Origin: Gemmatimonadota bacterium
GTDB taxonomy: Bacteria > Gemmatimonadota > Gemmatimonadetes > Gemmatimonadales > Gemmatimonadaceae
Direction of reading: 5' to 3'
Assembly: GCA_014192065.1 (NCBI GenBank)
Contig: BJHH01000005.1
Span: 1-64,000 of the forward strand
DNA: 64,000 nt
The translations under genes were made by a program, and so were the position numbers. The notes under the pieces are model-generated. The model had not been told where the DNA came from. It saw nothing but the letters and a program-made list of their open reading frames with translations, and did no database searches. The first letter of the stretch is position 1, and every line of letters starts with the position of its first letter. This document shows, piece after piece, positions 1 through 13,203 of the stretch.

Positions 1-134
1 TTGCGTTTGAAGGCGACTCGGAAGTTGTCTGGTTCGAAGGCAACTATGGCGCGTACCTCGACGACCTGAAGAAGCGAAAGGGTCCCGATGCTGACCAGCC
101 GCATCGGATCAAGTACCGGAAACTGGTAAGATAG
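1..134 (+). CDS. ettA: energy-dependent translational throttle protein EttA, C-terminal end (partial)
   Basis: Only the last 44 codons are in the window; the first complete codon is at 3 and the stop TAG at 132-134. The peptide carries the ABC-F tail seen in EttA proteins (FEGDSEVVWFEGNY, then DQPHRIKYRKLVR). EttA is a cytoplasmic ABC-F ATPase that binds the ribosomal E site and gates translation according to energy status. The identification is supported by the copy at 12961-13203, which also has the ABC signature-region sequence ISHDRWFLDR. Bases 1-127 are identical to 13070-13196. After base 127 the two copies diverge, but both still encode Val-Arg-stop. This is the usual result of integration into a gene's 3' end, where the element supplies replacement terminal codons. 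Confidence 0.88.
   Translation, partial: AFEGDSEVVWFEGNYGAYLDDLKKRKGPDADQPHRIKYRKLVR
109..134 (+). other. candidate left attachment site (attL) of the integrative element
   Basis: The last codons of ettA here (ATCAAGTACCGGAAACTGGT, then AAGATAG) match the right ettA fragment up to base 127 and then change while keeping the same amino acids. A related but diverged version lies at 3933-3962. I infer that strand exchange took place within these last codons. The exact core cannot be fixed because the three copies share only short blocks (TCAAGTAC and TGGT). Confidence 0.55.
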
Positions 135-172
135 TAAACTCCCCTATGAAACACCGAGTTTAGAAAAATACA

Positions 173-192
173 TTACGTGACATATTACGTAA
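173..192 (+). promoter_or_regulatory. paired recombinase arm-type sites, left end
   Basis: Two near-identical octamers, TTACGTGA (173-180) and TTACGTAA (185-192), are separated by CATA. This gives a period of 12 bases, about one helical turn. The same layout (octamer, 4-base AT spacer, octamer) occurs at 3745-3764 beside the integrase gene, and a single octamer lies at 3886-3893. Repeated short sites at both ends of an element next to a tyrosine recombinase are what arm-type integrase or excisionase binding sites look like. The role is inferred; the repeats are directly visible. Confidence 0.6.
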
Positions 193-244
193 TACCGCGA
201 CCGAAGTAAGGCGCCTAGTTGGCAGTGCGCCAGGTCTTGGACAA

Positions 245-280
245 CAAAGCCCCGACTCATCATCGGGGCTTAGTGTTTCT
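245..280 (+). terminator. stem-loop terminator-like repeat, copy 1
   Basis: A 9-base-pair stem (247-255 with 263-271, AAGCCCCGA/TCGGGGCTT) encloses a 7-base loop and is followed by a T-rich stretch (GTGTTTCT). It is nearly identical to the hairpin at 2272-2310. No gene is visible between ettA and this copy, so it may end ettA transcription or insulate the element. It may also be a remnant of an earlier cassette. Confidence 0.55.
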
Positions 281-532
281 ACTATCTCACCGTCACCTGT
301 CTGTCGAACAATGGTGCAAGACGGTGAAGTGGGCGGTGGAACAGCACATCGTGATCACGAACGCCAGGGAGGGCTGGACACGAGCACCAAGTGGGTGCAG
401 TATCTGAGGTGGGTCCGTTTCGCAAGGAAGTTTGCGTTGATGGGTTGGCGCGACAGCATGGGTGCTACCGCGTTGAAGTACCCGCTGTGTCTCAGGGGCT
501 CGACGAAGGACTGTCTGATGTTGGGACAATAG
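281..532. other. intergenic stretch without a supported gene
   Basis: This stretch lies between the first terminator copy and the first leader repeat. Short open frames exist on both strands, but none has a recognisable domain, convincing ribosome-binding site or conserved start. I see no RNA gene. Confidence 0.4.
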
Positions 533-632
533 TCACGACGCGCTAGTCACTACCAGGTCGCCAAGGTGTGGTGGTTGGAGATGGTTGATTCACAACAGGG
601 AGCCGCACGATGTCCCAAGATGCGCCGCTGCC
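533..632 (+). repeat. duplicated leader plus start region, copy 1
   Basis: About 100 bases, covering some 77 bases upstream of the ATG at 610 and the first codons (MSQDAP.PP), recur at 1745-1844 with an exact offset of 1212 bases. The first 55 bases differ at one position. The duplicated unit holds the ribosome-binding site and probably the promoter, so the two cargo genes probably share their regulation. Confidence 0.8.
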
Positions 633-1722
633 GCCCGACGAGACCGCCTGCCCTTCGTGCGGCGAACGCATCCTTGCCGCGGCAAAGAAATGCAAGCATT
701 GCGGGGAGTGGATCGCCAGCCAGCCTAATCCGATCCTCGCACAGCAGGCGAACTACAGCGTGCCACTACGTATCGAACGTCAGGAGCAGAGTGGTGGTGG
801 TGGCGGTCGTGGCGGTGGTAGCAGCTATTCCACGAGCTCCATTGGCATTGCGACTCAGGGGAGCGTGTGTCCGCAGTGCAAAGAGACGACCGGTTTTGCG
901 AACACGTACTCCATGTGGCATTGGGTGCTTGCGATTCTATTCTTCCCGCTTGGACTTCTCTGTCTACTATTTCCCATCAAGGTATGCGCACGCTGCGGGA
1001 CCACATTTGGCGCAGGTGTGCAGATGGCGAAGACCGTACGCATCATTGCCATCCTCTATCTCAGCGCGATTCTCCTCATCGTCGTTAGTTGTTTCGGCGT
1101 AATCGCAGTCGCGGGCTACACAGCAGCAAAAGCAGTCGGAGATGCTGGAGCGGCGGTCAGCTCTGCGCTTGGTACCACGCGTTCCGCGGTCGGGTCTACT
1201 GCGGAAGTCCCCGAGCCCGAACGGCAAGAGCCACTGGATTCTTCGTCGCTAACTAACCGAGAATCCGATCAGATTCCTTCTATTGAGTACCGCGCTCCAC
1301 CGATTGATAGCGGAGGGGACGGTGCTCGCCCTGGTGCGACGCAACCGTTTCTAACCGCCGATCGGATCGCGCAACAGTTGAAGATAGTCGAATCGTTGAA
1401 CCCGCGACCGTCCGAGGGCGGCGTGTACGAAGAGTCCATGGTTGAGAAACCCGTGACTGAAGCGTCCAATACCCAGCGGCCGCGGTTTCCCGACATCCTC
1501 AAGTCCGCCGGCGTTGAGGGCGAGGTGCTCGCCCAGTTTGTCGTCGACACTACGGGGCATGTCGAGATCAACTCGTTCAAGGTTCTCGATACTTCGCACG
1601 AACTGTTCGCGGCGTCGGTGCGTTCGGCGCTACCCGGCATGCGTTTCCACCCCGCCGAAGTGGGTGGGAAGCGCGTTCGTCAACTGGTGCAGCAACCGTT
1701 CGTCTTTGCCATCCAGAAGTAA
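610..1722 (+). CDS. zinc-ribbon membrane protein with C-terminal TonB domain
   Basis: The 370-residue protein starts at an ATG 9 bases after a purine-rich AGGGAG. The N-terminus has a CxxC-x10-CxxC zinc ribbon (Cys14, Cys17, Cys28, Cys31). A Gly-rich linker follows, then a second Cys pair (CPQC) and a third (CARC) on either side of a hydrophobic helix (about residues 100-118). A second strong membrane helix lies near residues 142-170. The last ~85 residues resemble the TonB C-terminal fold (the VEGEVLAQFVVDTTGHV region, ending in the PFVFAIQK type of strand). The protein is probably anchored in the inner membrane with the TonB-like domain in the periplasm. In the element it pairs with the DUF805 gene, which shares its leader and MSQDAP start. 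I know of no standard function for this domain order; a role in energy coupling or phage or transport interference is speculation. Confidence 0.7.
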   Translation: MSQDAPLPPDETACPSCGERILAAAKKCKHCGEWIASQPNPILAQQANYSVPLRIERQEQSGGGGGRGGGSSYSTSSIGIATQGSVCPQCKETTGFANTYSMWHWVLAILFFPLGLLCLLFPIKVCARCGTTFGAGVQMAKTVRIIAILYLSAILLIVVSCFGVIAVAGYTAAKAVGDAGAAVSSALGTTRSAVGSTAEVPEPERQEPLDSSSLTNRESDQIPSIEYRAPPIDSGGDGARPGATQPFLTADRIAQQLKIVESLNPRPSEGGVYEESMVEKPVTEASNTQRPRFPDILKSAGVEGEVLAQFVVDTTGHVEINSFKVLDTSHELFAASVRSALPGMRFHPAEVGGKRVRQLVQQPFVFAIQK

Positions 1723-1744
1723 TCGAACTTTCCTATCACGCCCC

Positions 1745-1844
1745 TCACGACGCGCTAGTCACTAGCAGGTCGCCAAGGTGTGGTGGTTGGAGATGGTTCA
1801 CTCACAACAAGGAGAAGCGTGATGTCCCAAGATGCGCCGTTCCC
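1745..1844 (+). repeat. duplicated leader plus start region, copy 2
   Basis: This is the second copy of the leader at 533-632. It ends in a stronger Shine-Dalgarno (AAGGAG, 1809-1814) before the ATG at 1822. Similarity drops soon after the MSQDAP codons, so only the leader and the start are duplicated, not the gene. Confidence 0.8.
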
Positions 1845-2211
1845 GCCAATGACATTCGGCGAAGCCATTGCTGCCTGCCTCGCGAAATACGCGACGTTTG
1901 GCGGAAGGGCTCGCCGTTCTGAGTATTGGTATTTTGTTCTAGCCACCTCAGTAGTCAGTTGGGTTGCGTTTGCGTTGGGAGCTGGTATGGCTTTGTTTGG
2001 CGAAGGGACTGGACTCGTTCTCTACTATATCGTGCTTCTCGGTCTGACATTGCCGACAACTGCTGCTTCTGTGCGCCGCCTGCACGACACGAATCGCTCT
2101 GGGTGGTGGTTGTTTATATATCTGACGGGTATCGGTGCGATTCCATTATTTATATGGTTGTGCATGAAAGGCACTCCCGGCGACAACAATTATGGAAAAC
2201 GCACAACGTAG
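1822..2211 (+). CDS. DUF805 family membrane protein
   Basis: The 129-residue protein has the DUF805 pattern: an N-terminal segment with FGGRARRSEYWYF, hydrophobic helices, the family signature RRLHDTNRSGWW, then a final helix. DUF805 proteins are small inner-membrane proteins of unknown function that recur near phage- and element-borne genes. I chose the ATG at 1822 because it follows AAGGAG and because its N-terminus (MSQDAPFPP) matches the upstream gene. Base composition is visibly more AT-rich than in the flanking chromosome. A terminator lies 60 bases downstream. Confidence 0.8.
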   Translation: MSQDAPFPPMTFGEAIAACLAKYATFGGRARRSEYWYFVLATSVVSWVAFALGAGMALFGEGTGLVLYYIVLLGLTLPTTAASVRRLHDTNRSGWWLFIYLTGIGAIPLFIWLCMKGTPGDNNYGKRTT

Positions 2212-2271
2212 GTAACCACCACTGCTTGAGCATCAGCATTGTCAGACCAGCCGCGCTGACCACCGTGAATA

Positions 2272-2310
2272 GCACAAAGCCCCGACTCATCATCGGGGCT
2301 TTGTGTTTCT
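2272..2310 (+). terminator. rho-independent terminator, copy 2
   Basis: A near-perfect stem of about 13 base pairs (2273-2285 with 2293-2305, core CAAAGCCCCGA/TCGGGGCTTTG) has a 7-base loop and a T-rich tail. It ends the DUF805 transcript. The core is identical to the hairpin at 247-271, so terminator and leader are both duplicated within the element. Confidence 0.8.
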
Positions 2311-2494
2311 ACATGTCACCATCCAAGAACTGAGTGACGATGGAAGCATGCTCGCGTCGTCGTGATGCAAGGCGTGGCACCAGTGTGACTGGGCGCTGCA
2401 AACTCACGTCGTTACCAGCGGCAAGGGAACCAATTGTGCGAGCAGTACATCCATTGACCGCAATCCCTCGACCACACGTTACGGTGCGGCGCGG

Positions 2495-3730
2495 TCAAGA
2501 ATCAAGAATCAGTTCCTGTACGAAATCCTCTGCACGGCTCGACCAAGTGCGCTCTCCCTTCTTCCGTGGCGCCTTGCTCTGTGCCGATAACCAATCAAGC
2601 AGACGCTGCCGGTCCTCGTCGAGGTCGCTCTTCGTTGGCTCTCGTTGCTGATACAGCGCCGTCATGTCGCGCGTGCCATGCCCCATGTAGTAGCTCAAAC
2701 GCGAGCGCGGGATACCGGCTTCTTCAAACCAGATAGATGCAGTGCGTCGAAAATCCCGAGCACGCACCGGCGTTGGCGGATCAAGCGCTTCGAGCCGTTG
2801 ATGCAATCCATGAGGTGAACGCGCAGCAGGTGGCAGCCACTTCACATGTGGAATCAGGCGAGAAGCATTCGCGGTCTTTACGCCCTTGATGCGCAGGTGC
2901 CCGGTCGCCTTGTCGCGCTCCCACAATCCACGATTGAACTCTGTCGGGCGCATTCCTGTCAGGACCAAGAACACAAGCCACGAACGATAGTCCGTAGGAG
3001 CATCCGGGTTTTCGTTTGGTCCGCGTGTCGAGTTGATTCTCTTCACCAAGTCTGCCAGATCGTGAACGGTGCTTAGAGGATGATGCGCACGCTTCGTCGT
3101 TGGTTTGATACGCGGAACTTGAACCACGCGACGAAACACGTGCGATTCTTCATCGTAGCCGAGATGGTGTCTGAGAAAGACGAGGATGTGGGTCCGCGCC
3201 TGATTGTACATCTCGGCTTTTCCTTCACTCGCGTATTTCGCACGTAGACGCCGCATTACGTCAGGGATATCACGAACGGGTGTATCGGCATCAATCATCG
3301 AGAGCGTTTCGAGTCGCTTCACCAATCCGAAGCGATTCCGTTTTGTCGATGGCGACAAGCCACTTTGCTCAACCCACTGCGTGAACAGTGTCTTGAATGG
3401 GTCGTTGATGTTTGCCTCGATGAAATTGAGGCGACCCTTCTGGTAGTCGACTAACGCATCGAGCAGGCGAACTTTGCCCGACTTGATGAGCGTGAGGCGA
3501 ACCGCGTCTCGAAGCGCATCGAGGTCCTTCACCATGAGCTTGATGTCCTTCACCATTTCGAGCGCGTTGCGTTGCTGCGGGAACACGCCGGATGCCTTGA
3601 AGATGCGACCGACCGTCTTTGTCACGATATCAATTGTGTAGCTCCCAACCTGCACCCATCGTTCACCCTTTCGGATTCGTCCGCGTGACGGCATAGTTAT
3701 GAGTATCCGAATAGCAGCAGCGCGCTGCAC
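2495..3730 (-). CDS. tyrosine recombinase (site-specific integrase)
   Basis: The 411-residue protein has a tyrosine-recombinase catalytic core at the C-terminus. Box I Arg261 is in LTGMRPTEF. The box II position is Arg325-x-x-Arg328 in RARDFRRT, where Arg replaces the usual His, a variant found in other integrases. His351 is in MGHGTRDMT and the nucleophile Tyr360 in ALYQQ. The N-terminal ~210 residues are the SAM-like and arm-binding part. The GTG start at 3730 is uncertain; an ATG at 3694 would remove 12 residues. The gene faces leftward, and paired arm-type sites (3745-3764) sit directly upstream, so the integrase may repress itself. No excisionase gene was found. It presumably recombines at the ettA 3' end. 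Confidence 0.88.
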   Translation of the reverse strand: MQRAAAIRILITMPSRGRIRKGERWVQVGSYTIDIVTKTVGRIFKASGVFPQQRNALEMVKDIKLMVKDLDALRDAVRLTLIKSGKVRLLDALVDYQKGRLNFIEANINDPFKTLFTQWVEQSGLSPSTKRNRFGLVKRLETLSMIDADTPVRDIPDVMRRLRAKYASEGKAEMYNQARTHILVFLRHHLGYDEESHVFRRVVQVPRIKPTTKRAHHPLSTVHDLADLVKRINSTRGPNENPDAPTDYRSWLVFLVLTGMRPTEFNRGLWERDKATGHLRIKGVKTANASRLIPHVKWLPPAARSPHGLHQRLEALDPPTPVRARDFRRTASIWFEEAGIPRSRLSYYMGHGTRDMTALYQQREPTKSDLDEDRQRLLDWLSAQSKAPRKKGERTWSSRAEDFVQELILDS

Positions 3731-3744
3731 ATGTGATTGAATGC

Positions 3745-3764
3745 TTACGTGATATATTACGTGA
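3745..3764 (+). promoter_or_regulatory. paired recombinase arm-type sites, integrase side
   Basis: TTACGTGA (3745-3752) and TTACGTGA (3757-3764) are separated by TATA, the same 12-base period as at 173-192. They lie about 15 bases upstream of the integrase start, so they could serve both recombination and promoter control. They partly overlap a perfect palindrome GACAATTGTC (3763-3772). A further single octamer is at 3886-3893. Confidence 0.6.
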
Positions 3765-3905
3765 CAATTGTCAAATATGCCACCAATTCATGAGACATGG
3801 TCGCTTTTGATGGAACGGTATTTGAGCTGAGCGAAATGTTGTTCGAAGATGTTTCACAGTAAGACTTTAGGGAATACAATATGGATTACGTGACACACGG
3901 GACAA
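3765..3905. other. non-coding right end of the integrative element
   Basis: AT-rich sequence between the integrase promoter and the right attachment site. I see no gene. It contains a lone TTACGTGA octamer at 3886-3893, whose distance from the candidate right att core (about 45-60 bases) is similar to that of the left pair from its core. Confidence 0.4.
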
Positions 3906-3962
3906 ATGGCGATCGATTCGGTCGCGAACGAGTTCAAGTACAAGAAGTTGGTGCGCTCGTAG
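3906..3962 (+). other. candidate right attachment site with divergent ettA-like tail
   Basis: An open stretch ending at TAG (3960-3962) reads ...NEFKYKKLVRS-stop. This aligns with the end of EttA (HRIKYRKLVR-stop), and the DNA shares TCAAGTAC and TTGGTGCG-type blocks with it. The in-frame stop at 3891-3893 limits it to a short tail, so it is not a gene. I read it as an attR-type junction whose ettA-derived codons come from a different ettA allele than the one at 1-134. The rlmN start follows 13 bases later. Confidence 0.5.
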
Positions 3963-3974
3963 GCCGACTTGCTG

Positions 3975-5075
3975 ATGGCCTTGCCCGTCACCTCCTCGCC
4001 ACGCGATCTCTACGGCCTCACGCGCGCTGAGCTCCAGCAGCAGCTGGTGCACTGGGGCCTCAAGCCCGTGCATGCCAACCGGCTGTGGAGGTATCTGTAC
4101 ATCGACCTCGTGTCGTCGTTTGACGAGATGCCCGAGCTGTTGCCCGCGTTGGCGGCGCGTCTGCGCGCGGAAACGACACTGGGCGTCCTGCCCACGACGC
4201 TCGAGACGGCGTCGAGCGATGGCTTTACGCGAAAGTATCTGCTGTCGCTCGCGGATGCCGCCACCATCGAGACCGTGCTCATGCGCTTCACGGGGCGCGT
4301 CACCGCTTGCGTGAGTTCACAGGTTGGCTGCGCCATGGGGTGCGTCTTTTGTGCGACGGGACAGATGGGGTACACGCGTCATCTCACACCGGGGGAGATC
4401 GTGGCGCAGGCCGTGCATGTGGCGCGCGTGCTGCGCCACGAGGCGCCCGCCGGCGCCATGATGCGCCAGACGCGCCATGGGCTCGGCACGCGCTTGCGGA
4501 ACCTGGTGCTGATGGGGATGGGCGAGCCGTTGCACAACTACGACGCGGTCATGCAGGCGATCGACATTCTCCTCGATCCGCATGGTCCGGCGCTCGCTGC
4601 CGACCGCATCACGTTGAGTACCGTGGGTGTCGTGCCGGGCATTCTTCGCATGGCCGCGGAACAGCGTCCGGTGCATCTGGCGGTGTCGCTTCACGCGGCC
4701 ACGCAGGCCGAGCGGGCGGCGCTGGTGCCCTCTGCGCGCAAGTGGCCGCTCGACGAACTGATGGCCGCATGCCGTACGTACAGTGCGACGACCGGTCGCC
4801 GCATTTTTTACGAGTGGACATTGATCGAGGGGCGGAACGACGGCGTGGACCAGGCGCGCGCCGTGGGTGTGCTGCTGCGCGGATTGCCGGCGCACGTGAA
4901 CCTCATTCCGCTCAATCCGACCACGGGCTACGACGGCGCGCCCACGCGCACCGAGGCGGCGACCCGCTTTCAGCAGGTGCTGGCGGAGGAGTTTGCGCTG
5001 CCGAGTACGGTGCGCCAGCGGCGCGGGATCGACATTGCGGCCGGGTGCGGGCAGCTGGCGGTGACGACGCGCTGA
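3975..5075 (+). CDS. rlmN: 23S rRNA (adenine2503-C2)/tRNA (adenine37-C2) methyltransferase RlmN
   Basis: A radical SAM methyltransferase of about 366 residues, normal length for RlmN. It has the CxxxCxxC cluster motif (Cys119, Cys123, Cys126), the first catalytic Cys at 112 in TACVSSQVGC, the GMGEPLHNY motif, a SAM-binding STVGVVPGI region, and the second catalytic Cys near the end (AAGCGQL). RlmN makes 2-methyladenosine at A2503 of 23S rRNA and A37 of some tRNAs. A TTG at 3969 is an alternative start. It lies just inside the high-GC part of the island, behind the ettA-like tail. A housekeeping gene here suggests either an extra copy or an ettA-rlmN order carried over from the donor. Confidence 0.93.
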   Translation: MALPVTSSPRDLYGLTRAELQQQLVHWGLKPVHANRLWRYLYIDLVSSFDEMPELLPALAARLRAETTLGVLPTTLETASSDGFTRKYLLSLADAATIETVLMRFTGRVTACVSSQVGCAMGCVFCATGQMGYTRHLTPGEIVAQAVHVARVLRHEAPAGAMMRQTRHGLGTRLRNLVLMGMGEPLHNYDAVMQAIDILLDPHGPALAADRITLSTVGVVPGILRMAAEQRPVHLAVSLHAATQAERAALVPSARKWPLDELMAACRTYSATTGRRIFYEWTLIEGRNDGVDQARAVGVLLRGLPAHVNLIPLNPTTGYDGAPTRTEAATRFQQVLAEEFALPSTVRQRRGIDIAAGCGQLAVTTR

Positions 5076-5099
5076 ACACACGCCGCCGCCGGCGGTTTG

Positions 5100-5888
5100 T
5101 TACGGCCGGCAGTTCGCGGCAGCGACCCGTGCGCGGACATCGGCGGCATCGCGCGGTCGGGTGCCGGCGTCGGGGGCGCGGAAGGTGATCACGTAGGCGC
5201 CATCGGGCATGTCATCGCGGCGCACACGGCTGTACCCGACGGCGCCGAGTTCGCAGATGAGCAGCCGCGGCGGGGTGCCGTGTCGGTCGGTCGGGGCATC
5301 CTGATCGAGAATCGCCAACCGCCCTCCGGCGCGGAACGCCGTCGCGAGCCGATACAGCAGGGCGTACGGGTCGCTGATCTCGTGATACATGTGAATCATC
5401 AGCGCCACGTCGATACTGGCCGCGGGCAACGCCGGATCACCGGGGGTTCCCGCGATCACCTCCACATTGGTCCACTTGGCGTCGGCCACGCGCTCGCGAA
5501 GCATCGCGAGGTAGCGCGGCTCGATGTCCTGCCCGTACACCAGGCCGCGCGCACCCACCCGCTCACTGAGGTGCCGCACGTAGTAGCCGTCACCGGCACC
5601 GATGTCGGCCACGCGCTGTCCGGCGCGGATGTTCAGAATGTCCATCACCTTCTCCGCCTCGCCGAAGGCGTCGCGGTCAACCTCATCGATCCACCGCGGT
5701 GCCACGATGCGCGAAATGGGCCGGTTGGGCGCCGGAAACTCGCGGGCGGCCGATTGTGCGGTGCCCGACTGCGCCGCGGCCGGTTGCGCCGTGCCCGTGG
5801 CGGCCAGGGTGAGGCTCGCGGCCAGTCCGGTTGCCGTGGTCACGCGCGCCATGAGGCGGCGGGAGCCTGCGATGGATTGGGTCAGCAT
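5100..5888 (-). CDS. exported class I SAM-dependent methyltransferase
   Basis: The Rossmann-fold methyltransferase core has motif I VADIGAGDGYYV, an acidic motif II (GQDIEPRYLAML), and a later MIHMYHEISDP segment typical of class I enzymes. Upstream of it lies a basic, then hydrophobic, Ala-rich segment ending in an AAAQ-type cleavage site, so export is predicted. This is odd for a SAM-dependent enzyme. The start is uncertain: I prefer the ATG at 5888 (signal peptide with RR in the n-region). The frame is open to 5948, and an ATG at 5852 is also possible. The substrate is unknown. Its 3' end is 24 bases from that of the convergent rlmN. Confidence 0.75.
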   Translation of the reverse strand: MLTQSIAGSRRLMARVTTATGLAASLTLAATGTAQPAAAQSGTAQSAAREFPAPNRPISRIVAPRWIDEVDRDAFGEAEKVMDILNIRAGQRVADIGAGDGYYVRHLSERVGARGLVYGQDIEPRYLAMLRERVADAKWTNVEVIAGTPGDPALPAASIDVALMIHMYHEISDPYALLYRLATAFRAGGRLAILDQDAPTDRHGTPPRLLICELGAVGYSRVRRDDMPDGAYVITFRAPDAGTRPRDAADVRARVAAANCRP

Positions 5889-6053
5889 ACGAACGTGTGC
5901 GCGACGGGACGACGAACGGCCACAGGGGAACACGGGAAGCACGGGCATGGACTCGGTGGCCAGGGATAGAGGAGGACCTTCACCAACAGAAGCCGCGAGC
6001 TGGCCGCGGGGTTCCGCGTCGCCACCATCCGCGCGTGCCTCTAGAGGGTCAGA

Positions 6054-7577
6054 TCACAACACCGGGCGCCGCTTGCCGTGCTCTGTCGCCTGCTCGAAGG
6101 CATGCGCCAACTGCAGCAGCGCCCAGTCACCGCGCGGTTTGCCCACGATCTGCGCGCCCACGGGCAGGCCGCTGGCGCTGAAGCCGGCGGGCACGCTGAT
6201 GGCGGGGCACTGCATGAAGGTCACGTACCACGCGCTGCGCATCCAGTCGATGTAGGTCGGCATCGCGACACCGGCCACGGTGGTGGGATACTCCGTCGTG
6301 ATATCGAACGGCTCCACCTGCGTCACGGGACACACATACGCGTCGTACTTCGAAAAGAACTGCGACACGTGCCGGTACATCTGTGCTTGCCGCGCGTTGG
6401 CCCTGGCCACATTCACCGCGCCCTGTCGTTCGGCTTCGGTGATCTCCCACTTCACGGTGTCCTTGAAGAGCGTGGGGTTGTCGCGCGACAGCTTCGCATA
6501 GCTGTTGTGATACGTGAGATGCCGCAGTGCGGGGAACGCTTCGTCGACACCGCTGAAATCGGGCTCCGCGTCTTCCACGATGCACCCCATGTCAATGAAC
6601 GCTTTCCGGTTGGCGTTGAGCACGCGCGTGATCTCCGGCTCGAAGGGCAAGCCGCCCATGTTCGTAAACCACGCAATGCGCTTGCCCTTCATGCTGGCGG
6701 CGAGCGGACGGCGGAAGATGGCCGGATCGTCAGCGAGCGATGTGGGATCGGGGGCGTGCACACCGGCGATGGCGCTCAGAAAGAGTGCCACGTCTTCCAC
6801 TGAACGCGCCATCGGACCACTGGTGGAGAGCGGCGACCAGGAGCCGTCGTCGTCGGGTACGCGTCCGGGAGACGGACGGAAGCCCACGACGTTGTTCCAT
6901 GCGCCAGGATTGCGCAGTGAGCCGCCGGTGTCGCTGCCATCGGCGATCGGTAGCAGGTTGCAGTTGAGGGCGCAGGCCGCGCCGCCACTCGAGCCGCCCA
7001 CGGTTTTCTGGAGGTTGAACCCGTTGCGCGTGGCGCCGAACACCGCGTTGAAGGTGTTCGAGCCGGCGCCGAACTCCGGCGTGTTGGTCTTGCCGATCGT
7101 GATCGCGCCGGCGGCGCGGATGCGCTGCACGATCAGGGCATCGGTAGTCGGCACGTTGTCCTTGTACAGCAGCGAGCCCTTGGTGGTGCGGATGCCCGCC
7201 GTATCAACGAGATCCTTGTGCGCAATCGGCAAGCCGTGCAACGGTCCAAGCGGCTCGCCGCGCGCCTGACGTTCGTCGGCGGCCTTGGCCCACGCGCGCG
7301 CCTGCTCCGGTACGAGCGTGACGATGGCATTCACGGTCGGGTTCACACGCTCGATGCGCGCGAGATGCGCCTCGAGCACTTCGCGGGCCGACACGCTTTT
7401 GCGTCTGATGCGCGCGGCGAGCTCGGTGGCCGAGAGCGACGTGAGTTCGTCGGCGGGAGTGCTATGAGGTGCGGACATGGCAGGGGTGTTCGCAGAGAGT
7501 ACGTGAGGGAGCGCGCCGCCGACGGCGGCGGCACCGACCAGCTGCGTGAAGGCGCGGCGGGAGAATGAATCGGTCAT
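6054..7577 (-). CDS. amidase, amidase-signature family, Tat-exported
   Basis: The 507-residue protein has a twin-arginine signal (FSRRAFTQLV) and the full Ser-cisSer-Lys triad: Lys121 in IAHKDLVDT, Ser196/197 in the GGSSGGA loop, and nucleophile Ser220 in DGSDTGGSLR. The family hydrolyses carboxamides such as peptide amides or aryl amides; the natural substrate cannot be told from sequence. The length fits the family. It is followed on the same strand, about 165 bases later, by the methyltransferase gene. Confidence 0.93.
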   Translation of the reverse strand: MTDSFSRRAFTQLVGAAAVGGALPHVLSANTPAMSAPHSTPADELTSLSATELAARIRRKSVSAREVLEAHLARIERVNPTVNAIVTLVPEQARAWAKAADERQARGEPLGPLHGLPIAHKDLVDTAGIRTTKGSLLYKDNVPTTDALIVQRIRAAGAITIGKTNTPEFGAGSNTFNAVFGATRNGFNLQKTVGGSSGGAACALNCNLLPIADGSDTGGSLRNPGAWNNVVGFRPSPGRVPDDDGSWSPLSTSGPMARSVEDVALFLSAIAGVHAPDPTSLADDPAIFRRPLAASMKGKRIAWFTNMGGLPFEPEITRVLNANRKAFIDMGCIVEDAEPDFSGVDEAFPALRHLTYHNSYAKLSRDNPTLFKDTVKWEITEAERQGAVNVARANARQAQMYRHVSQFFSKYDAYVCPVTQVEPFDITTEYPTTVAGVAMPTYIDWMRSAWYVTFMQCPAISVPAGFSASGLPVGAQIVGKPRGDWALLQLAHAFEQATEHGKRRPVL

Positions 7578-7719
7578 CGCCTGAATATGCTGCGCACGCT
7601 GGCGTTCGCGAGAGGCGGATCTGGTCGCCAGGGCGAACTAGCCAGAATGGTCATTGCTGGGGACATTGCAGTCAGGGGAACGGCGAGGGCATCGGCAACA
7701 ATCGGGCGGAACGCGATCG

Positions 7720-7870
7720 GTGAGTATTCATGTGGTGTTGGTGCATCCCGAAATTCACTGGAATACCGGCAATGCGGGGCGCACCTGCCTCGCCACCGGT
7801 GCCACGCTGCACCTCATCGAGCCGTTAGGGTTCTCGCTCGATGAGGCGCAAGTGAAGCGCGCAGGCCTCG
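7720..7870 (+). pseudogene. truncated trmL-like tRNA 2'-O-methyltransferase fragment
   Basis: From a GTG at 7720 the frame encodes about 50 residues matching the N-terminus of TrmL (SpoU/TrmH family): HVVLVHPEIHWNTGNAGR, then ATGATLHLIEPLGFSLDE and KRAGL. Homology stops abruptly near 7870, where a full TrmL would continue for about 100 more residues (knotted SAM-binding region). The next 130 bases match nothing I recognise. This is a gene fragment left by recombination inside the island. Confidence 0.75.
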
Positions 7871-8003
7871 GTGTTCGTGGCCACGGTGAGTCCGTTCGCC
7901 CTCATCGCCGCCAGCGCCATGGCGTCGAAGCGGAAGAGCGAGTCGCGCTAGGCGACGGCCTGCCGGGTGACGCGGGTGGCGGGCCGTTAACGAATGGGGA
8001 CGG

Positions 8004-9545
8004 ATGGCGTCCAACAATGCGTTCGTTCACTCCCGACTTCCGCACATGCGTCTTCGCCTCGCCCGTCCCTGGCGTTTCCACCTGCTGGACCGTCTATGGG
8101 TCCCCGCAGCTGCAGCTGTCGGGGTCATCGCGCTGACCGGCTGTCGCCCGCAGGAGGCTACGGCCGTTCCGTCGGGCCCCTCGACGCCGCCGCCCATCAC
8201 GCCGACCGGTACCGAGGGGGCGTTCCGCGGCTCGATCGTGCTGGGTCGCCCCTCCGAGCGGAGTGTCGTGGCCAACGTGTGGACCGTGGATCAGGCGGGG
8301 ACCATCTCGCTGCTGGTCGGTACCGCTCCCGGCCGGTACACGCGACGCACCGCGCCCGTGGCGCTGACGGCCGATACCCCAGTCGAGTTGCCGATCAGCG
8401 ATCTCACGCCGGGAACGCGCTACTACTACCGGCTGCAGTTCGACGGGGCCACCGGGACTGGGCCGACCGCCGAGCGATCATTCCGCACGGCGCCTGCAGC
8501 CGGCGGCACCTTCCGGTTCGGCCTGCAGGGGGACTCGCATCCCGAGCGGCTGCGCTCGCAGTTCGACTCGGTGCTGTACGTCCGCACGCTGACCGCTGCC
8601 GCTGCCGATTCGCTCGACTTCTACGTGATGCTCGGCGACGACTTCAGCGTGGACATTCTCGATCCGGCGACGATCACCGCGGCGCAGGTGCGGCAGCGAT
8701 ACACGCTGCAGCGACCGTATCTGGGGATCATCGGTGCGATGAGTCCTGTGTTCCTCGTCAATGGCAACCACGAGCAGGCCGCGCGCTACCTGCTCGATGG
8801 GACGCCCAACAATCCGGCCGTGTGGGCGCAGAACGCGCGCAACAGTCTGTACGCACAACCGGCGCCCGACGCGTTCTACAGCGGAAACGCCGAACAGGTG
8901 TCGCACATCGGTCTGCTGCGGAACTTCTACGCCTTCACCTGGGGTGACGCGCTCTTCGTTATGATCGATCCGTACTGGGGATCACCGGTGTGCGTGGACA
9001 ATCCCTTCTTCGGCGGCGACAAGCGTTCCGATCTGTGGACCGTGACGCACGGGGACGCGCAGTACCAGTGGCTCAAGCGTACCCTCGAGCAGAGCTCGGC
9101 GAAGTACAAGTTCGTGTTTGCGCATCACGTGATGGGCACCGGACGTGGCGGCGTGGAAGTGGCGCGCCTGTACGAGTGGGGCGGGCGCAACCCCAATGGG
9201 ACCGTGGAGTTCGCCGCACGACGCCCCACCTGGCCCGTGCCGATTCACCAGCTGTTCGTACAGAACAAGGTGAGCGCCTTCTTCCAGGGGCACGATCACA
9301 TCTGGGTGCGGCAGGAGCTCGACGGCGTCGTGTATCAGGCCGTCTCAGAGCCGGCCGACCCCAACTACTCGCTCTTCAACGCCGACGCGTACACCACGGG
9401 TGTGAAGTTCCCCAACTCGGGGTACACGCGCGTGACCGTCAGTCCGGCCGGGGCGAAGGTCGAATACGTGCGCATGTACAAGACGGCCGACGAGACCGCG
9501 GGACGCACCAGCGGGACGGTGGCCTACAGCTACGTGATCCCATGA
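8004..9545 (+). CDS. secreted metallophosphoesterase lipoprotein, purple-acid-phosphatase-like
   Basis: The 513-residue protein has a lipobox-type signal (VIALTGC), a fibronectin-like N-terminal domain with the PGTRYYYRLQ strand, then a calcineurin-like phosphoesterase domain with all metal-binding motifs: GDSH, LGDD, NGNHE, AHH and QGHDH. It probably hydrolyses phosphate esters outside the inner membrane. The ATG at 8004 follows GGGGACGG; an ATG at 8046 would give a shorter signal. The stop overlaps the next start (ATGA, 9542-9545), so it is the first gene of a coupled operon. Confidence 0.87.
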   Translation: MASNNAFVHSRLPHMRLRLARPWRFHLLDRLWVPAAAAVGVIALTGCRPQEATAVPSGPSTPPPITPTGTEGAFRGSIVLGRPSERSVVANVWTVDQAGTISLLVGTAPGRYTRRTAPVALTADTPVELPISDLTPGTRYYYRLQFDGATGTGPTAERSFRTAPAAGGTFRFGLQGDSHPERLRSQFDSVLYVRTLTAAAADSLDFYVMLGDDFSVDILDPATITAAQVRQRYTLQRPYLGIIGAMSPVFLVNGNHEQAARYLLDGTPNNPAVWAQNARNSLYAQPAPDAFYSGNAEQVSHIGLLRNFYAFTWGDALFVMIDPYWGSPVCVDNPFFGGDKRSDLWTVTHGDAQYQWLKRTLEQSSAKYKFVFAHHVMGTGRGGVEVARLYEWGGRNPNGTVEFAARRPTWPVPIHQLFVQNKVSAFFQGHDHIWVRQELDGVVYQAVSEPADPNYSLFNADAYTTGVKFPNSGYTRVTVSPAGAKVEYVRMYKTADETAGRTSGTVAYSYVIP

Positions 9546-11188
9546 TGACATCCTGCCCACTCCGTCGCGGTATTGCCGCGGTCACTTTCTCCTTCCTGGC
9601 AGGCGGCTGCGGTAGCGGCGACTCGCCTTCGGCCACCCCACCCGTGACTCCCGCCCCGGTCGCGTCGCAGATCGTGGTCACGCCGGCCACGGTGACCATG
9701 AACACGGGTGCCACTGCCACGCTCACCGCCGCCACTCTCACGGCCACCGGGGCGCCGGTGGGTGGTGTCACCGTGACATGGACGAGCAGTGCTCCTCAGG
9801 TGGCCACCGTGTCTGCCGCTGGGGTCGTGACCGGTGTCAGCGTAGGCAGTGCGACCATCACGGCTGCCGCCGGCGCCCTCCGCGGGACGAGCGCCATCAC
9901 GGTGCGCACCACCCCACCGGCGGGCAGCTTTCAGACCACCGTGCCCGCCGTGGACTTCAACGTCGTGCCGGCCAGGCCCACCGACACCGCCATCAGTCTC
10001 AGTCTGCTGTCCGCGAGCAGTCGTACCGTCACGCTGACGTTGCTCGACGGCGGCCGCACCGAGTCGCTGGTGCTCACGGCCGGTGAGCCGCGCGTGCTCG
10101 AACTCACCGGACTCACGGCAGACCGCACCTACCGCTATCGCATCACGGCGACGTCCCCGGCATTGACCTACGACGGGCAGTTCCGCACGGCACGGGCCAA
10201 CGGCAGTACCTACCGCTTCGTGATGCAGGCGGACTCGCATCTCGACGAGAACTCCGACCCGGCGATCTATACGAACACGTTGCGCAACATGCTCGCCGAC
10301 AGCGCCGACTTCCTCGTCGATCTCGGCGATACCTTCATGTCGGACAAGTACAGCGACTACCGGGACGCATCGGCCCACTACGTCGCGCAGCGCTACTACT
10401 TCGGCGTCAGCGGCACGCAGTTGCCGCTGTATCTGGTGCAGGGCAATCACGACGCCGAGAGCGGCTGGCTCAGCGCGAATGCCGCATGGGCGGCCTCGCA
10501 GCGACTGCGATGGTTTCCCGCCGTGTCCCCCAACACGTTCTATTCGAGCGGCGCCACCGCTGCGATTCCACGCAACTACTACGCGTGGCGCTGGGGAGAC
10601 GCCTTGTTCGTGGCACTCGATCCCTACGCGTTCACCACGACCAAACCGAGTTCGGCCTCGAGCAGCTGGGCCTGGACGCTGGGAAGGGAACAGTATGACT
10701 GGCTCACGCGCACCCTCGAGTCGAGCACGGCCCGGTACACGTTCGTATTCCTGCATCACCTGGTGGGCGGGCAGGGGTTCGAGGCGCGCGGTGGTGCCGA
10801 GGCCTCGCGCTTTTTCGAGTGGGGTGGCGCCAATGCCGATGGCACCCCCGCCTTCGCGGAGCGTCGGGCCGGATGGGCCATGCCGATTCACGATCTGCTC
10901 GTGAAGCACAAGGTCTCCGCGGTGTTTCACGGCCACGATCACCTCTACGTGAATCAGGGACGTGACGGCATCCGGTACCTCGAGGTGCCCCAGCCGAGTT
11001 TCGCCCGCGAGAACGCCACGCAGAGTGCGGCGGACTACGGCTATCTCTCTGGCGTGCTGCTCGGCAGTTCGGGGCATGTGCGTGTCACCGTCTCGCCAAC
11101 CAAGGCGACGGTCGCGTACGTCCGCTCACGCCTCGTCGCCGGGAACGGTGTCGTGGCCGATCAGTTCGACATTCCACCGTCCCGCTGA
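9542..11188 (+). CDS. secreted metallophosphoesterase with Ig-like (BIG2) domain
   Basis: A 548-residue lipoprotein (LAGGCGSG). A bacterial Ig-like domain (SQIVVTPATVTMNTG... through VSVGSATITA) precedes a fibronectin-like domain (GLTADRTYRYRI) and a calcineurin-like phosphoesterase domain with QADSH, LGDTF, QGNHD, LHH and HGHDH. It is a paralogue of the upstream gene with an added adhesion-type module. Its start codon overlaps the previous stop, and the next gene starts 2 bases after its stop. Confidence 0.87.
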   Translation: MMTSCPLRRGIAAVTFSFLAGGCGSGDSPSATPPVTPAPVASQIVVTPATVTMNTGATATLTAATLTATGAPVGGVTVTWTSSAPQVATVSAAGVVTGVSVGSATITAAAGALRGTSAITVRTTPPAGSFQTTVPAVDFNVVPARPTDTAISLSLLSASSRTVTLTLLDGGRTESLVLTAGEPRVLELTGLTADRTYRYRITATSPALTYDGQFRTARANGSTYRFVMQADSHLDENSDPAIYTNTLRNMLADSADFLVDLGDTFMSDKYSDYRDASAHYVAQRYYFGVSGTQLPLYLVQGNHDAESGWLSANAAWAASQRLRWFPAVSPNTFYSSGATAAIPRNYYAWRWGDALFVALDPYAFTTTKPSSASSSWAWTLGREQYDWLTRTLESSTARYTFVFLHHLVGGQGFEARGGAEASRFFEWGGANADGTPAFAERRAGWAMPIHDLLVKHKVSAVFHGHDHLYVNQGRDGIRYLEVPQPSFARENATQSAADYGYLSGVLLGSSGHVRVTVSPTKATVAYVRSRLVAGNGVVADQFDIPPSR

Positions 11189-11190
11189 CG

Positions 11191-12675
11191 ATGATTCGCG
11201 CGCTTCCTCGACTCGTTCTTCGCCCGGGCGTATACGGCGTTGGTATGGCGCTGCTGCTCGGCGCGTGTGGCAGTGATGTCAAAACCGCTGCTCCGACCAC
11301 CCCCACGCCGAACCCGCCCACTCCCACGGCGAATTTCAGCGTCACCAGCAGCGGCGTGGTGAATGGCACGCTCCCGACTACCTACACCTGCGACGGCGAG
11401 TCGAAGTCGCCGCCGTTCGCGTGGGCCGGTGCGCCCGCCAACACGGTGGAATACGCGCTGCTCATGAGCACGGTGCCCACGGTTGGCGCGACCAAGTACA
11501 GTTGGGTGTTGTACGGCATCCCGGCCACCGTGACCAGCATCGCTACCGGTACCGCGGCCGGCACCGTGGGACAGGCCGACGACGGTGCGGGTACCAACTA
11601 TGCGCCGCCCTGCTCGCAGGGGCCCGGACTCAAGCAGTACACCATTCAGGTCTTCGCGCTGTCCGCTGCCGGTCGTGTGACTAGTACGCCGTTGCAGACC
11701 ACCGGGGCGGCGCTGCTCGATGCCATCCGCAGCATCACGCTCGCGACCGCCACGTTGAGCGTCAACGTGAATCGCACACAGGCGATGATCAACTGCGGTT
11801 ACGTGCGGGCGTCCGTGACGCCATGGCGCGCCGCTACCGGTGTGGAGGTGACCTGTGATTCCACCTACGCGGCGATCGCGTCCACCGGCATCCAGAGTCG
11901 CCACGTGATGATGCGCGGCATTCGCGCCACGAATCAGCAGGTGCCGATTCCGCAGAACTTCACGGGCAGCAACGCGTGGCGCATTCCACCTACGCCGGTC
12001 GTCAGCGCCACCAAGACCTCCGCCCTCGATGGCCCGATCGGCATCGCCGTCAACGGCGTGCCCATCTTCAATCCGTGCAAGCAGGGCGGGTGCAGCGGCC
12101 CCGGCGGCGGCGACACCAAGGTGCTGGGCGAGTTGGACGACTGCAACGGCCACGCCGGACGTGCCGACGACTACCACTACCATGCGGCCCCCACGTGTCT
12201 CATGAGTGAACAGGGTGCGGCCTATTGGGACACGCATCCTGTTGGGTGGGCGCTGGATGGGTACGCCATCTTCGGCTACCGGAATCCCGATGGGACGACC
12301 GCGACGCGCGACGCGGGGTGTGGCGGCAACACCGTGACGCATGCCAATGCGCCCGCAGGCTATGCGTATCACGTAACCGACGTGAGCCCGTACGTGTTGA
12401 GTTGCTTCCACGGGAACCCGAGTCCCGATCTTGCGGGCCAGTCGGCGAAGTTCTCGCCGTTACGGCCACCGGGGACACCCATGCCGTCGACCAACATGAC
12501 GCTCGAGACGTCGGCGACGGCCTTGGCTATCGGCGGCACGAGCACGTTGCGTTGGGAGAACGCCAATCGGCGCTATCAGATCCGGTACACCCGCACCGCG
12601 GCGGCGTGCTGGACCTTCGAATTCCAGACCGATGGCGTGATCACTGGCACCAGCGCATACTGTCGGGCCCGATGA
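11191..12675 (+). CDS. PEBP-like/YHYH-domain fusion lipoprotein
   Basis: The 494-residue protein starts with a lipoprotein signal (ALLLGACGSD). Residues ~50-200 resemble the YbhB/YbcL phosphatidylethanolamine-binding protein family (YTCDGESKSPPFAWAG, then KYSWVLYGIPA). The second half is a YHYH domain, named for DDYHYHAAP, with the flanking patterns IAVNGVPIFNPC and WALDGYAIFGYR. The function of either domain in this setting is unknown; YHYH domains are often found with phosphatase-like or extracellular enzymes. Its stop overlaps the next ATG (12672-12675), so four genes are translationally coupled. Confidence 0.82.
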   Translation: MIRALPRLVLRPGVYGVGMALLLGACGSDVKTAAPTTPTPNPPTPTANFSVTSSGVVNGTLPTTYTCDGESKSPPFAWAGAPANTVEYALLMSTVPTVGATKYSWVLYGIPATVTSIATGTAAGTVGQADDGAGTNYAPPCSQGPGLKQYTIQVFALSAAGRVTSTPLQTTGAALLDAIRSITLATATLSVNVNRTQAMINCGYVRASVTPWRAATGVEVTCDSTYAAIASTGIQSRHVMMRGIRATNQQVPIPQNFTGSNAWRIPPTPVVSATKTSALDGPIGIAVNGVPIFNPCKQGGCSGPGGGDTKVLGELDDCNGHAGRADDYHYHAAPTCLMSEQGAAYWDTHPVGWALDGYAIFGYRNPDGTTATRDAGCGGNTVTHANAPAGYAYHVTDVSPYVLSCFHGNPSPDLAGQSAKFSPLRPPGTPMPSTNMTLETSATALAIGGTSTLRWENANRRYQIRYTRTAAACWTFEFQTDGVITGTSAYCRAR

Positions 12676-12959
12676 GTCGCGGAATACGTGGCCGATCGCA
12701 GGTGTCGGTGCGCTGGTGGGCCCTGCTGGCCGCGTTGCTCGTGCTGCCGCTCCACCGCGCGACGGCGCACGAACTGCAGCAAACGGCAATCGCGCTCGTC
12801 GTTCGCGAAGGCGGCGCACTCGAGGTGCGGCTCACGTGCACCTGGTCGCGGCTACTGCTCGCGTCGGGAGCCGCCGGGCCAACGGACGGCGCGCGTGCCG
12901 TCATCGCACGGCTCGCCGCCGAGCCGGCCGCGACGTTCGCCGCACGCGTCGACACCATT
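12672..12959 (+). pseudogene. truncated exported protein, 5' end only
   Basis: A start coupled to the YHYH gene (ATGA) opens a frame with a signal peptide (WWALLAALLVLPL, cleavage near ATA) followed by HELQQTAIALVV, as in N-terminal periplasmic parts of some HupE/UreJ-type membrane proteins. That family guess is weak. The natural frame is lost at about 12960, where the sequence switches to the ettA fragment. The frame runs on as nonsense to 13079. This marks the island's right junction. Confidence 0.6.
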
Positions 12960-12960
12960 C

Positions 12961-13203
12961 GACGTGGACACGTTGCGGGCGCTCGAAGAAGCAGTAATCG
13001 ACTTCAGTGGCTGCGCGGCGATCATTTCACACGACCGGTGGTTTCTCGATCGCGTGGCCACACACATTCTTGCGTTTGAAGGCGACTCGGAAGTTGTCTG
13101 GTTCGAAGGCAACTATGGCGCGTACCTCGACGACCTGAAGAAGCGAAAGGGTCCCGATGCTGACCAGCCGCATCGGATCAAGTACCGGAAACTGGTGCGA
13201 TAA
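12961..13203 (+). pseudogene. ettA: ettA 3' fragment (right-hand copy)
   Basis: The 80 codons encode the EttA C-terminus: DVDTLRALEEAVIDF, then ISHDRWFLDR and KYRKLVR, ending TAA at 13201-13203. There is no start, no Walker A and no preceding domain. Bases 13070-13196 equal window bases 1-127 exactly. The stop overlaps the ATG of the next gene (TAATG), which looks like the original ettA junction with its chromosomal neighbour. The fragment is therefore the downstream boundary of the island. Confidence 0.88.

Follow-up and report, generated by a model that had tools for sequence, protein, structure and literature searches.

The window analysed here, a stretch of 64,000 nucleotides, is the initial 64 kb of contig C5 of a metagenome-assembled genome of 2.45 Mb (16 contigs, 97.75% complete). 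Near its start, an open reading frame for a zinc-ribbon membrane protein (ORF1), a DUF805 membrane protein gene (ORF2) and a tyrosine integrase gene together form an element of ~3.8 kb (about 128-3960) at the 3' end of an ABC-F gene. The features of this region are as follows.

1-134, plus strand: 3' end of an ABC-F ATPase gene, the contig starting inside the gene (identical to 13070-13196 over 127 of 127 bases; 82% to the gene of the relative G008)
109-127, plus strand: left attachment-core candidate TCAAGTACCGGAAACTGGT (pattern search)
173-190, no strand: end repeat TTACGTGACATATTACGT of 18 bases, candidate integrase site (pattern search)
244-282, plus strand: terminator-like hairpin, copy 1, before ORF1 (repeat; fold z -4.85; motif expected 0 times by shuffling)
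533-635, plus strand: leader copy 1, 103 bp, 5' UTR and first codons MSQDAPLPP (repeat, 90% to 1745-1847)
610-1722, plus strand: ORF1, with zinc ribbon, BRI3-like module, transmembrane part, linker and TonB C-terminal domain (open reading frame, Pfam, hydropathy, structure model)
1432-1742, plus strand: tonB-derived stretch (92% DNA identity to the genome's own tonB, continuing beyond the stop codon)
1477-1647, plus strand: homogenised core of the tonB copy (2 differences in 171 bases)
1745-1847, plus strand: leader copy 2, 103 bp, 5' UTR and first codons MSQDAPFPP (repeat of 533-635)
1822-2211, plus strand: ORF2, DUF805 membrane protein (Pfam, 2.1e-28; phrog_12855, a moron-class membrane protein, 5.2e-17)
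2274-2312, plus strand: terminator-like hairpin, copy 2, after ORF2 (repeat; fold analysis)
2495-3694, minus strand: tyrosine integrase (Phage_integrase, weak, 9.6e-5; phrog_1 integrase, 4e-16)
3745-3762, no strand: second copy of the end repeat, with 1 mismatch (pattern search)
3934-3961, plus strand: right attachment-core candidate, or remnant of the ABC-F gene 3' end (FKYKKLVRS*; sequence and pattern search)
12959-13203, plus strand: displaced native ABC-F 3' end, adjoining a DUF5916 gene as in G008 (DNA comparison)

The ABC-F ATPase, which we take to be EttA-like, has been provided with a new 3' end by the insertion (1-134). The sequence TCAAGTAC at the 3' end of this gene has copies at 109, 3934 and 13178 (one more, at 44237, is taken as chance), and TTACGTGACATATTACGT at up to 3 mismatches occurs in the 64-kb window only at 173 and 3745. 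Since positions 1-127 equal 13070-13196 and contig C10 ends in a sequence identical to 12959-13085, perfect 238-bp copies of the ABC-F gene 3' end flank an insertion of ~12.8 kb (128-12958), after which DUF5916 follows; contig overlaps of exactly 127 bases would fit an excised circle and an empty site equally well. The locus has the integrase, the attachment repeats and the displaced target end of an integrative element. The initial annotation proposed a minimal element with the integrase as the only further gene beside ORF1 and the DUF805 gene; these three genes are indeed present, but the element is nested in the larger insertion between the ABC-F copies. In the remainder of that insertion (3962-12958), which gives no clear sign of belonging to the small element, lie a divergent rlmN and genes for a methyltransferase, an amidase, phosphoesterases and a YHYH/PBP protein. 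The GC content of 4001-8000 is 0.66-0.71. The rlmN gene (3969-5075, RlmN-like radical SAM) shows 42-46% identity to 6 other matches among 61 genomes, while its DNA is almost unmatched in the genus; it was considered as a marker for the empty site and set aside as too divergent from genus members, and the ABC-F 3' end served instead. Two neighbouring metallophosphoesterase-like frames (8004-9545, with a Pfam assignment, and ~9560-11188) look like paralogues by eye. The ABC-F fragment cuts off the frame at 12672-12958, whether through a genuine truncation or through a join made in assembly.

The reported company of an integrase and a DUF805 protein was borne out by the profile matches (phrog_1, 4e-16, and Pfam, 2.1e-28), and the R, R, GH and Y boxes of the integrase are recognisable by eye. 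At E <= 1e-20, 8 of 99 genomes, our own counted, have a relative of the integrase; the one in G008 (46% identity) lies just upstream of the equivalent ABC-F gene, while that in G005 (L084 4284-6608) adjoins a cytosine-5 methylase and an HNH nuclease, likely a restriction-modification cargo. The integrase had no match in viral contigs. A leader of 103 bp, which includes the first nine codons, is common to ORF1 and the DUF805 gene at 90% identity, and these are otherwise unrelated membrane-protein genes. An internal methionine of ORF2 (MTFGEA) may be the usual DUF805 start. Among 179 family genomes the leader yielded only its own two copies and two short chance-like matches; the match in G058 runs antisense to a cytochrome-oxidase-like frame (by eye). 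Its RNA fold is no better than that of shuffled sequences, a promoter scan stayed at chance level, and Rfam gave no match over 1-4200. In the G008 element, the cargo gene ends with a hairpin very similar to the terminator-like pair but oriented the opposite way (L078:831-851, by eye).

ORF1 encodes 370 aa from an ATG start without internal stops. Pfam TonB_C covers residues 290-367 (E 8.4e-9, above cut-off), and the C-terminal half of the BRI3 profile (PF10164) covers residues 86-133 (E 1.1e-6; 29.5 bits against a curated cut-off of 25.9). Several Pfam zinc-ribbon models match near residues 9-38, all under their cut-offs, and the ten cysteines include the pairs 14/17, 28/31, 87/90 and 126/129. 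The architecture first described for 610-1722, namely a zinc ribbon, a membrane part and a TonB-like C-terminus in this order, therefore holds: the frame is intact, and the Pfam matches and cysteine pairs agree with it. The membrane helices are less simple. Two hydrophobic stretches are present (101-129 and 139-176), but the first, enclosed by two cysteine pairs, is possibly re-entrant instead of forming a plain transmembrane helix. This second zinc module (CxxC, hydrophobic stretch, CxxC) presumably resembles the LITAF-type monotopic zinc domains. If the pairs on either side share one zinc, 101-129 would not cross the membrane, and the helix 139-176 would then place the C-terminus in the periplasm; lysine and arginine immediately N-terminal of this helix are consistent with such an orientation. 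From hydropathy and this logic, we infer cytoplasmic zinc parts, one membrane-spanning helix, and a periplasmic portion made of a linker of ~100 residues and the TonB C-terminal domain.

A model of residues 266-370 built with 17 homologues reached a mean pLDDT of 92.1, and Foldseek retrieved from the PDB, as its top match, the TonB C-terminal domain complexed with FoxA (6i97_D; E 3.9e-7, TMt 0.85). VIA aligned the model with the FoxA-complex TonB at Z 12.6 (89 residues, 1.8 A) and with the TonB of the BtuB complex at Z 10.8, and HasB and TolA domains rank lower among the structure matches. As the alignment behind the model consisted of TonB proteins, a TonB-like outcome was to be expected; phmmer with the ORF1 sequence alone also retrieved TonB chains (1.1e-5). 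Over its full length ORF1 was modelled poorly (pLDDT 56.6, pTM 0.27), and the C-terminal part of that model likewise retrieves TonB in a structure search. As modelled, the C-terminal domain of ORF1 folds like that of TonB, in agreement with the fold foreseen for it.

When ORF1 was searched against its own genome, four places were found, the second of which (contig C4) is 89% identical to residues 266-370. This place is the 3' end of tonB, followed by genes for ExbB (1.3e-30), ExbD (1.8e-20) and a further ExbD (1.6e-24). At the DNA level, 1432-1742 and this tonB are 92.3% identical over 311 bp without a gap, and the similarity takes in the last 96 codons of ORF1, the stop codon and 20 bp beyond; the encoded domains share 95.6% identity over 90 residues. 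The same stretch was matched in 17 of 18 genus genomes, the runners-up after the genome's own copy being G001 (82%) and G008 (80%). ORF1 is hence a chimera: a zinc-ribbon/BRI3-like membrane protein from the accessory genes of the genus, joined to a C-terminal domain taken from a tonB. By the initial annotation, homologues found only in chromosomes and linked to exbBD would speak against its reading; this describes the nearest relative of the C-terminal domain, the resident tonB, and does not apply to the protein as a whole.

The captured part is not uniform. Over 288 coding bases, the element differs from its own tonB at 2/171 positions in a core and at 20/117 in the flanks. The tonB genes of sister species differ from the own tonB throughout (core and flanks, respectively: 25/171 and 16/117 for G001, 26/171 and 21/117 for G008, 35/171 and 11/117 for G010, 43/171 and 22/117 for G003), unlike the element copy. 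When the differing codons were shuffled, a 57-codon window equally poor in differences arose in 0 of 100,000 tries. Where five host tonB genes vary among themselves, the element and the own tonB differ at 0/59 sites in the core and 13/37 in the flanks (Fisher, 8.8e-7, with core limits set after the data were seen). The tonB part of ORF1 is thus mosaic: its core agrees with the resident tonB, its flanks less so. On our reading, the donor of this C-terminal domain was probably a tonB roughly as diverged as the gene of another species, and the resident gene overwrote the core afterwards; conversion in the reverse direction, from the element into tonB, seems less likely because the core of the own tonB is no outlier against G001 or G008. 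The codon changes in the compared part comprise 13 synonymous and 4 amino-acid changes. This excess is no proof of selection on the fusion after capture, because the synonymous changes may date from the donor's time as an ordinary tonB.

The front half has few relatives. Among 99 relatives searched with ORF1, 6 matched, and besides the own genome only G006, of the same genus, did so beyond 66 residues (44% over residues 12-158). Its homologue (L021:4760-5221) is a free-standing protein of 154 aa that stops after the membrane helix, has no TonB domain and scores above the BRI3 cut-off (33.7 bits); the N-terminal part of ORF1 is 43% identical to it. Directly before it, within L021 4224-5224, lies a separate gene for a GYF_2 membrane protein (E 4.6e-13), and we take this GYF and zinc-ribbon pair to be parts known from GltJ, here split over two genes. 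In 395 phylum genomes, Pfam BRI3 was found only in our own (1/395), and a two-row N-terminal alignment matched 16/395, all except our own over at most 38 residues of the zinc ribbon, G006 being absent from these matches and so presumably outside that sample. A scan of GTDB r220 for the front half gave 2 loci, of which one is the G006 contig and the other a zinc-ribbon match of 20 residues; viral contigs gave 19 loci, each covering only ~20-45 residues of the zinc ribbon, phage records a single match of 26 zinc-ribbon residues, and plasmids none. The TonB C-terminal domain was found in 2 plasmid records, in none of 50,697 phage records at E <= 0.01, and was confirmed in no viral contig. The ORF1-type fusion is therefore known from one metagenome-assembled genome, in one copy.

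In the BtuB and FhuA complexes, the Ton box of the receptor adds onto the C-terminal strand of TonB, and expressed C-terminal fragments of TonB inhibit TonB-dependent functions in E. coli. Residues 354-366 of ORF1, which form this last strand, are identical to the host TonB. At the other end of TonB, the membrane helix contacts ExbB via Ser16/His20, and the D-box just after the helix binds ExbD, according to PMC10907165. The corresponding SxxxH occurs in 19/19 genus TonB-type sequences tested (in 3/19 the first pattern match lay upstream and the helix motif was taken from the alignment) and is absent from ORF1. A D-box-like genus pattern is present in 18/19 and not in ORF1, as judged by pattern, although the linker stretch 'PSIEYRAPP' may be a loose version of it. 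Both tests cover 19 of 23 alignment rows, the divergent L064, L066, L003 and L004 being left out.

Our preferred reading, to which we give a probability of about 0.4, is that ORF1 is a non-energised Ton-box binder that serves as a passive competitor, a decoy or a tether at TonB-dependent receptors. As the Ton-box-recruiting strand is unchanged, the C-terminal domain would keep binding the Ton box of outer-membrane TonB-dependent transporters, and as the helix motif is missing and the D-box seems to be, ExbB/ExbD would be unable to drive it. A domain that binds and is not energised would act as a competitor or tether, and would lower or re-tune TonB-dependent uptake together with the entry of whatever uses those receptors. 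Candidate gains for the element might be the exclusion of TonB-dependent phages or bacteriocins, or a sensing of the receptor state via the zinc domains. The phage records searched, in which no TonB C-terminal domain was found, offer no precedent for such a decoy. We consider it improbable that the element makes a decoy in the full sense, that is, a host-type TonB domain on a foreign anchor which recombination with the resident tonB keeps matched to the receptors of each new host. The defence or exclusion role suggested in the initial annotation found no direct support: PADLOC returned no match for ORF1 or the integrase, and the searches of phage records and viral contigs for the TonB domain gave the outcome described above. 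A weak PADLOC match of ORF2 to KwaA (E 0.0091) is probably due to chance between membrane proteins.

Should the fusion be functional, it would show that mobile elements are able to take over, and keep up to date, the domain with which a host energy transducer binds receptors, a form of host mimicry for controlling the bacterial envelope. Were the element-made decoy true, it would represent a new route to control outer-membrane import, and perhaps to exclude TonB-dependent phages and bacteriocins.

The strongest competing explanation, doubtful in our view and yet a serious one, is that recombination between the cargo gene and tonB happened to be in frame and left a useless protein, a passing accident of one lineage. 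The narrow distribution suits this explanation (a full N-terminal match in 1/395 phylum genomes, with 15 more limited to at most 38 residues of the zinc ribbon), as do the G006 homologue without TonB and the duplicated leaders and hairpins, which are a sign of rearrangement. Against it, the 370-codon frame is intact and its leader has been kept, and synonymous changes outnumber amino-acid ones, although these may predate the fusion. Even an idle chimera would show clearly how a domain is captured, conversion tract included, in a phylum whose mobile elements are little studied.

Another explanation draws on the GltJ/AgmX protein of the Myxococcus gliding machinery, which carries an N-terminal zinc ribbon and a GYF domain. 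PMC8262864 describes a TonB-like C-terminal domain in this protein. By analogy, the cytoplasmic zinc ribbon of ORF1 would dock and the TonB-like domain would be a periplasmic arm, with a partner protein that drives or gates it. The order of parts is the same in the two proteins, the G006 homologue adjoins a GYF_2 protein, and ORF1 has a weak, sub-threshold match to the C-terminal domain of AgmX/PglI (E 0.001). ORF1, however, has no GYF domain (Pfam, none at E <= 1), does not match the NCBIfam GltJ model (NF033761, E <= 0.1) and derives its C-terminal domain from tonB, and no gliding genes were seen in the element; we regard a transducer of this kind as unlikely. That ORF1 is an extra working TonB, energised by ExbBD and serving a particular receptor, is very unlikely: the near-identity of its C-terminal domain to the host TonB and the TonB-like fold would suit such a role, but the helix lacks SxxxH, no D-box-like motif is recognised and exbBD is not linked. 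Least probable is an element and tonB sequence joined or homogenised by the metagenome assembler, for although the genome is in many contigs and this one begins exactly at the 127-base repeat, a sign of graph ambiguity nearby, both core flanks differ from tonB (20/117) and the sequence continues into its own leader and the DUF805 gene, so that a simple misjoin does not produce the fusion, and the core itself holds two differences, even if a homogenised core alone could be an artefact.

Set beside known systems, ORF1 resembles TonB in the sequence and fold of its C-terminal domain and, as far as its topology can be predicted, in a single membrane-crossing helix and a periplasmic linker. It departs from TonB in the missing SxxxH motif, in the apparent lack of a D-box-like motif, in additional, probably cytoplasmic zinc domains, in the lack of an exbBD link and in its location on a mobile element. 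With GltJ/AgmX it shares the zinc ribbon, a transmembrane part and a TonB-like C-terminal domain, whereas the GYF domain is lacking, the C-terminal domain is of another origin and gliding genes are not nearby. ORF1 is neither a TonB, by the helix criterion, nor a GltJ, by the model and the GYF domain. The 154-aa protein of G006 has the same cysteine pairs and hydrophobic stretches as the front half of ORF1, but ends after the membrane helix without linker or TonB domain and adjoins the GYF_2 gene. The companion ORF2 matches the prophage 'moron' DUF805 membrane proteins (phrog_12855) and, unlike these, has its leader and first codons in common with ORF1. By the analogy with GltJ, the combination of a zinc ribbon and a TonB-like domain would not be unprecedented, contrary to the initial statement that no characterised protein has such a build. 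Within the open-licence literature searched, no account turned up of a zinc-ribbon/BRI3-like protein that has captured the C-terminal domain of a tonB. What is new here is that the C-terminal domain of ORF1, its stop codon and the following 20 bp are a near-copy, mosaic in structure, of the tonB of the same genome.
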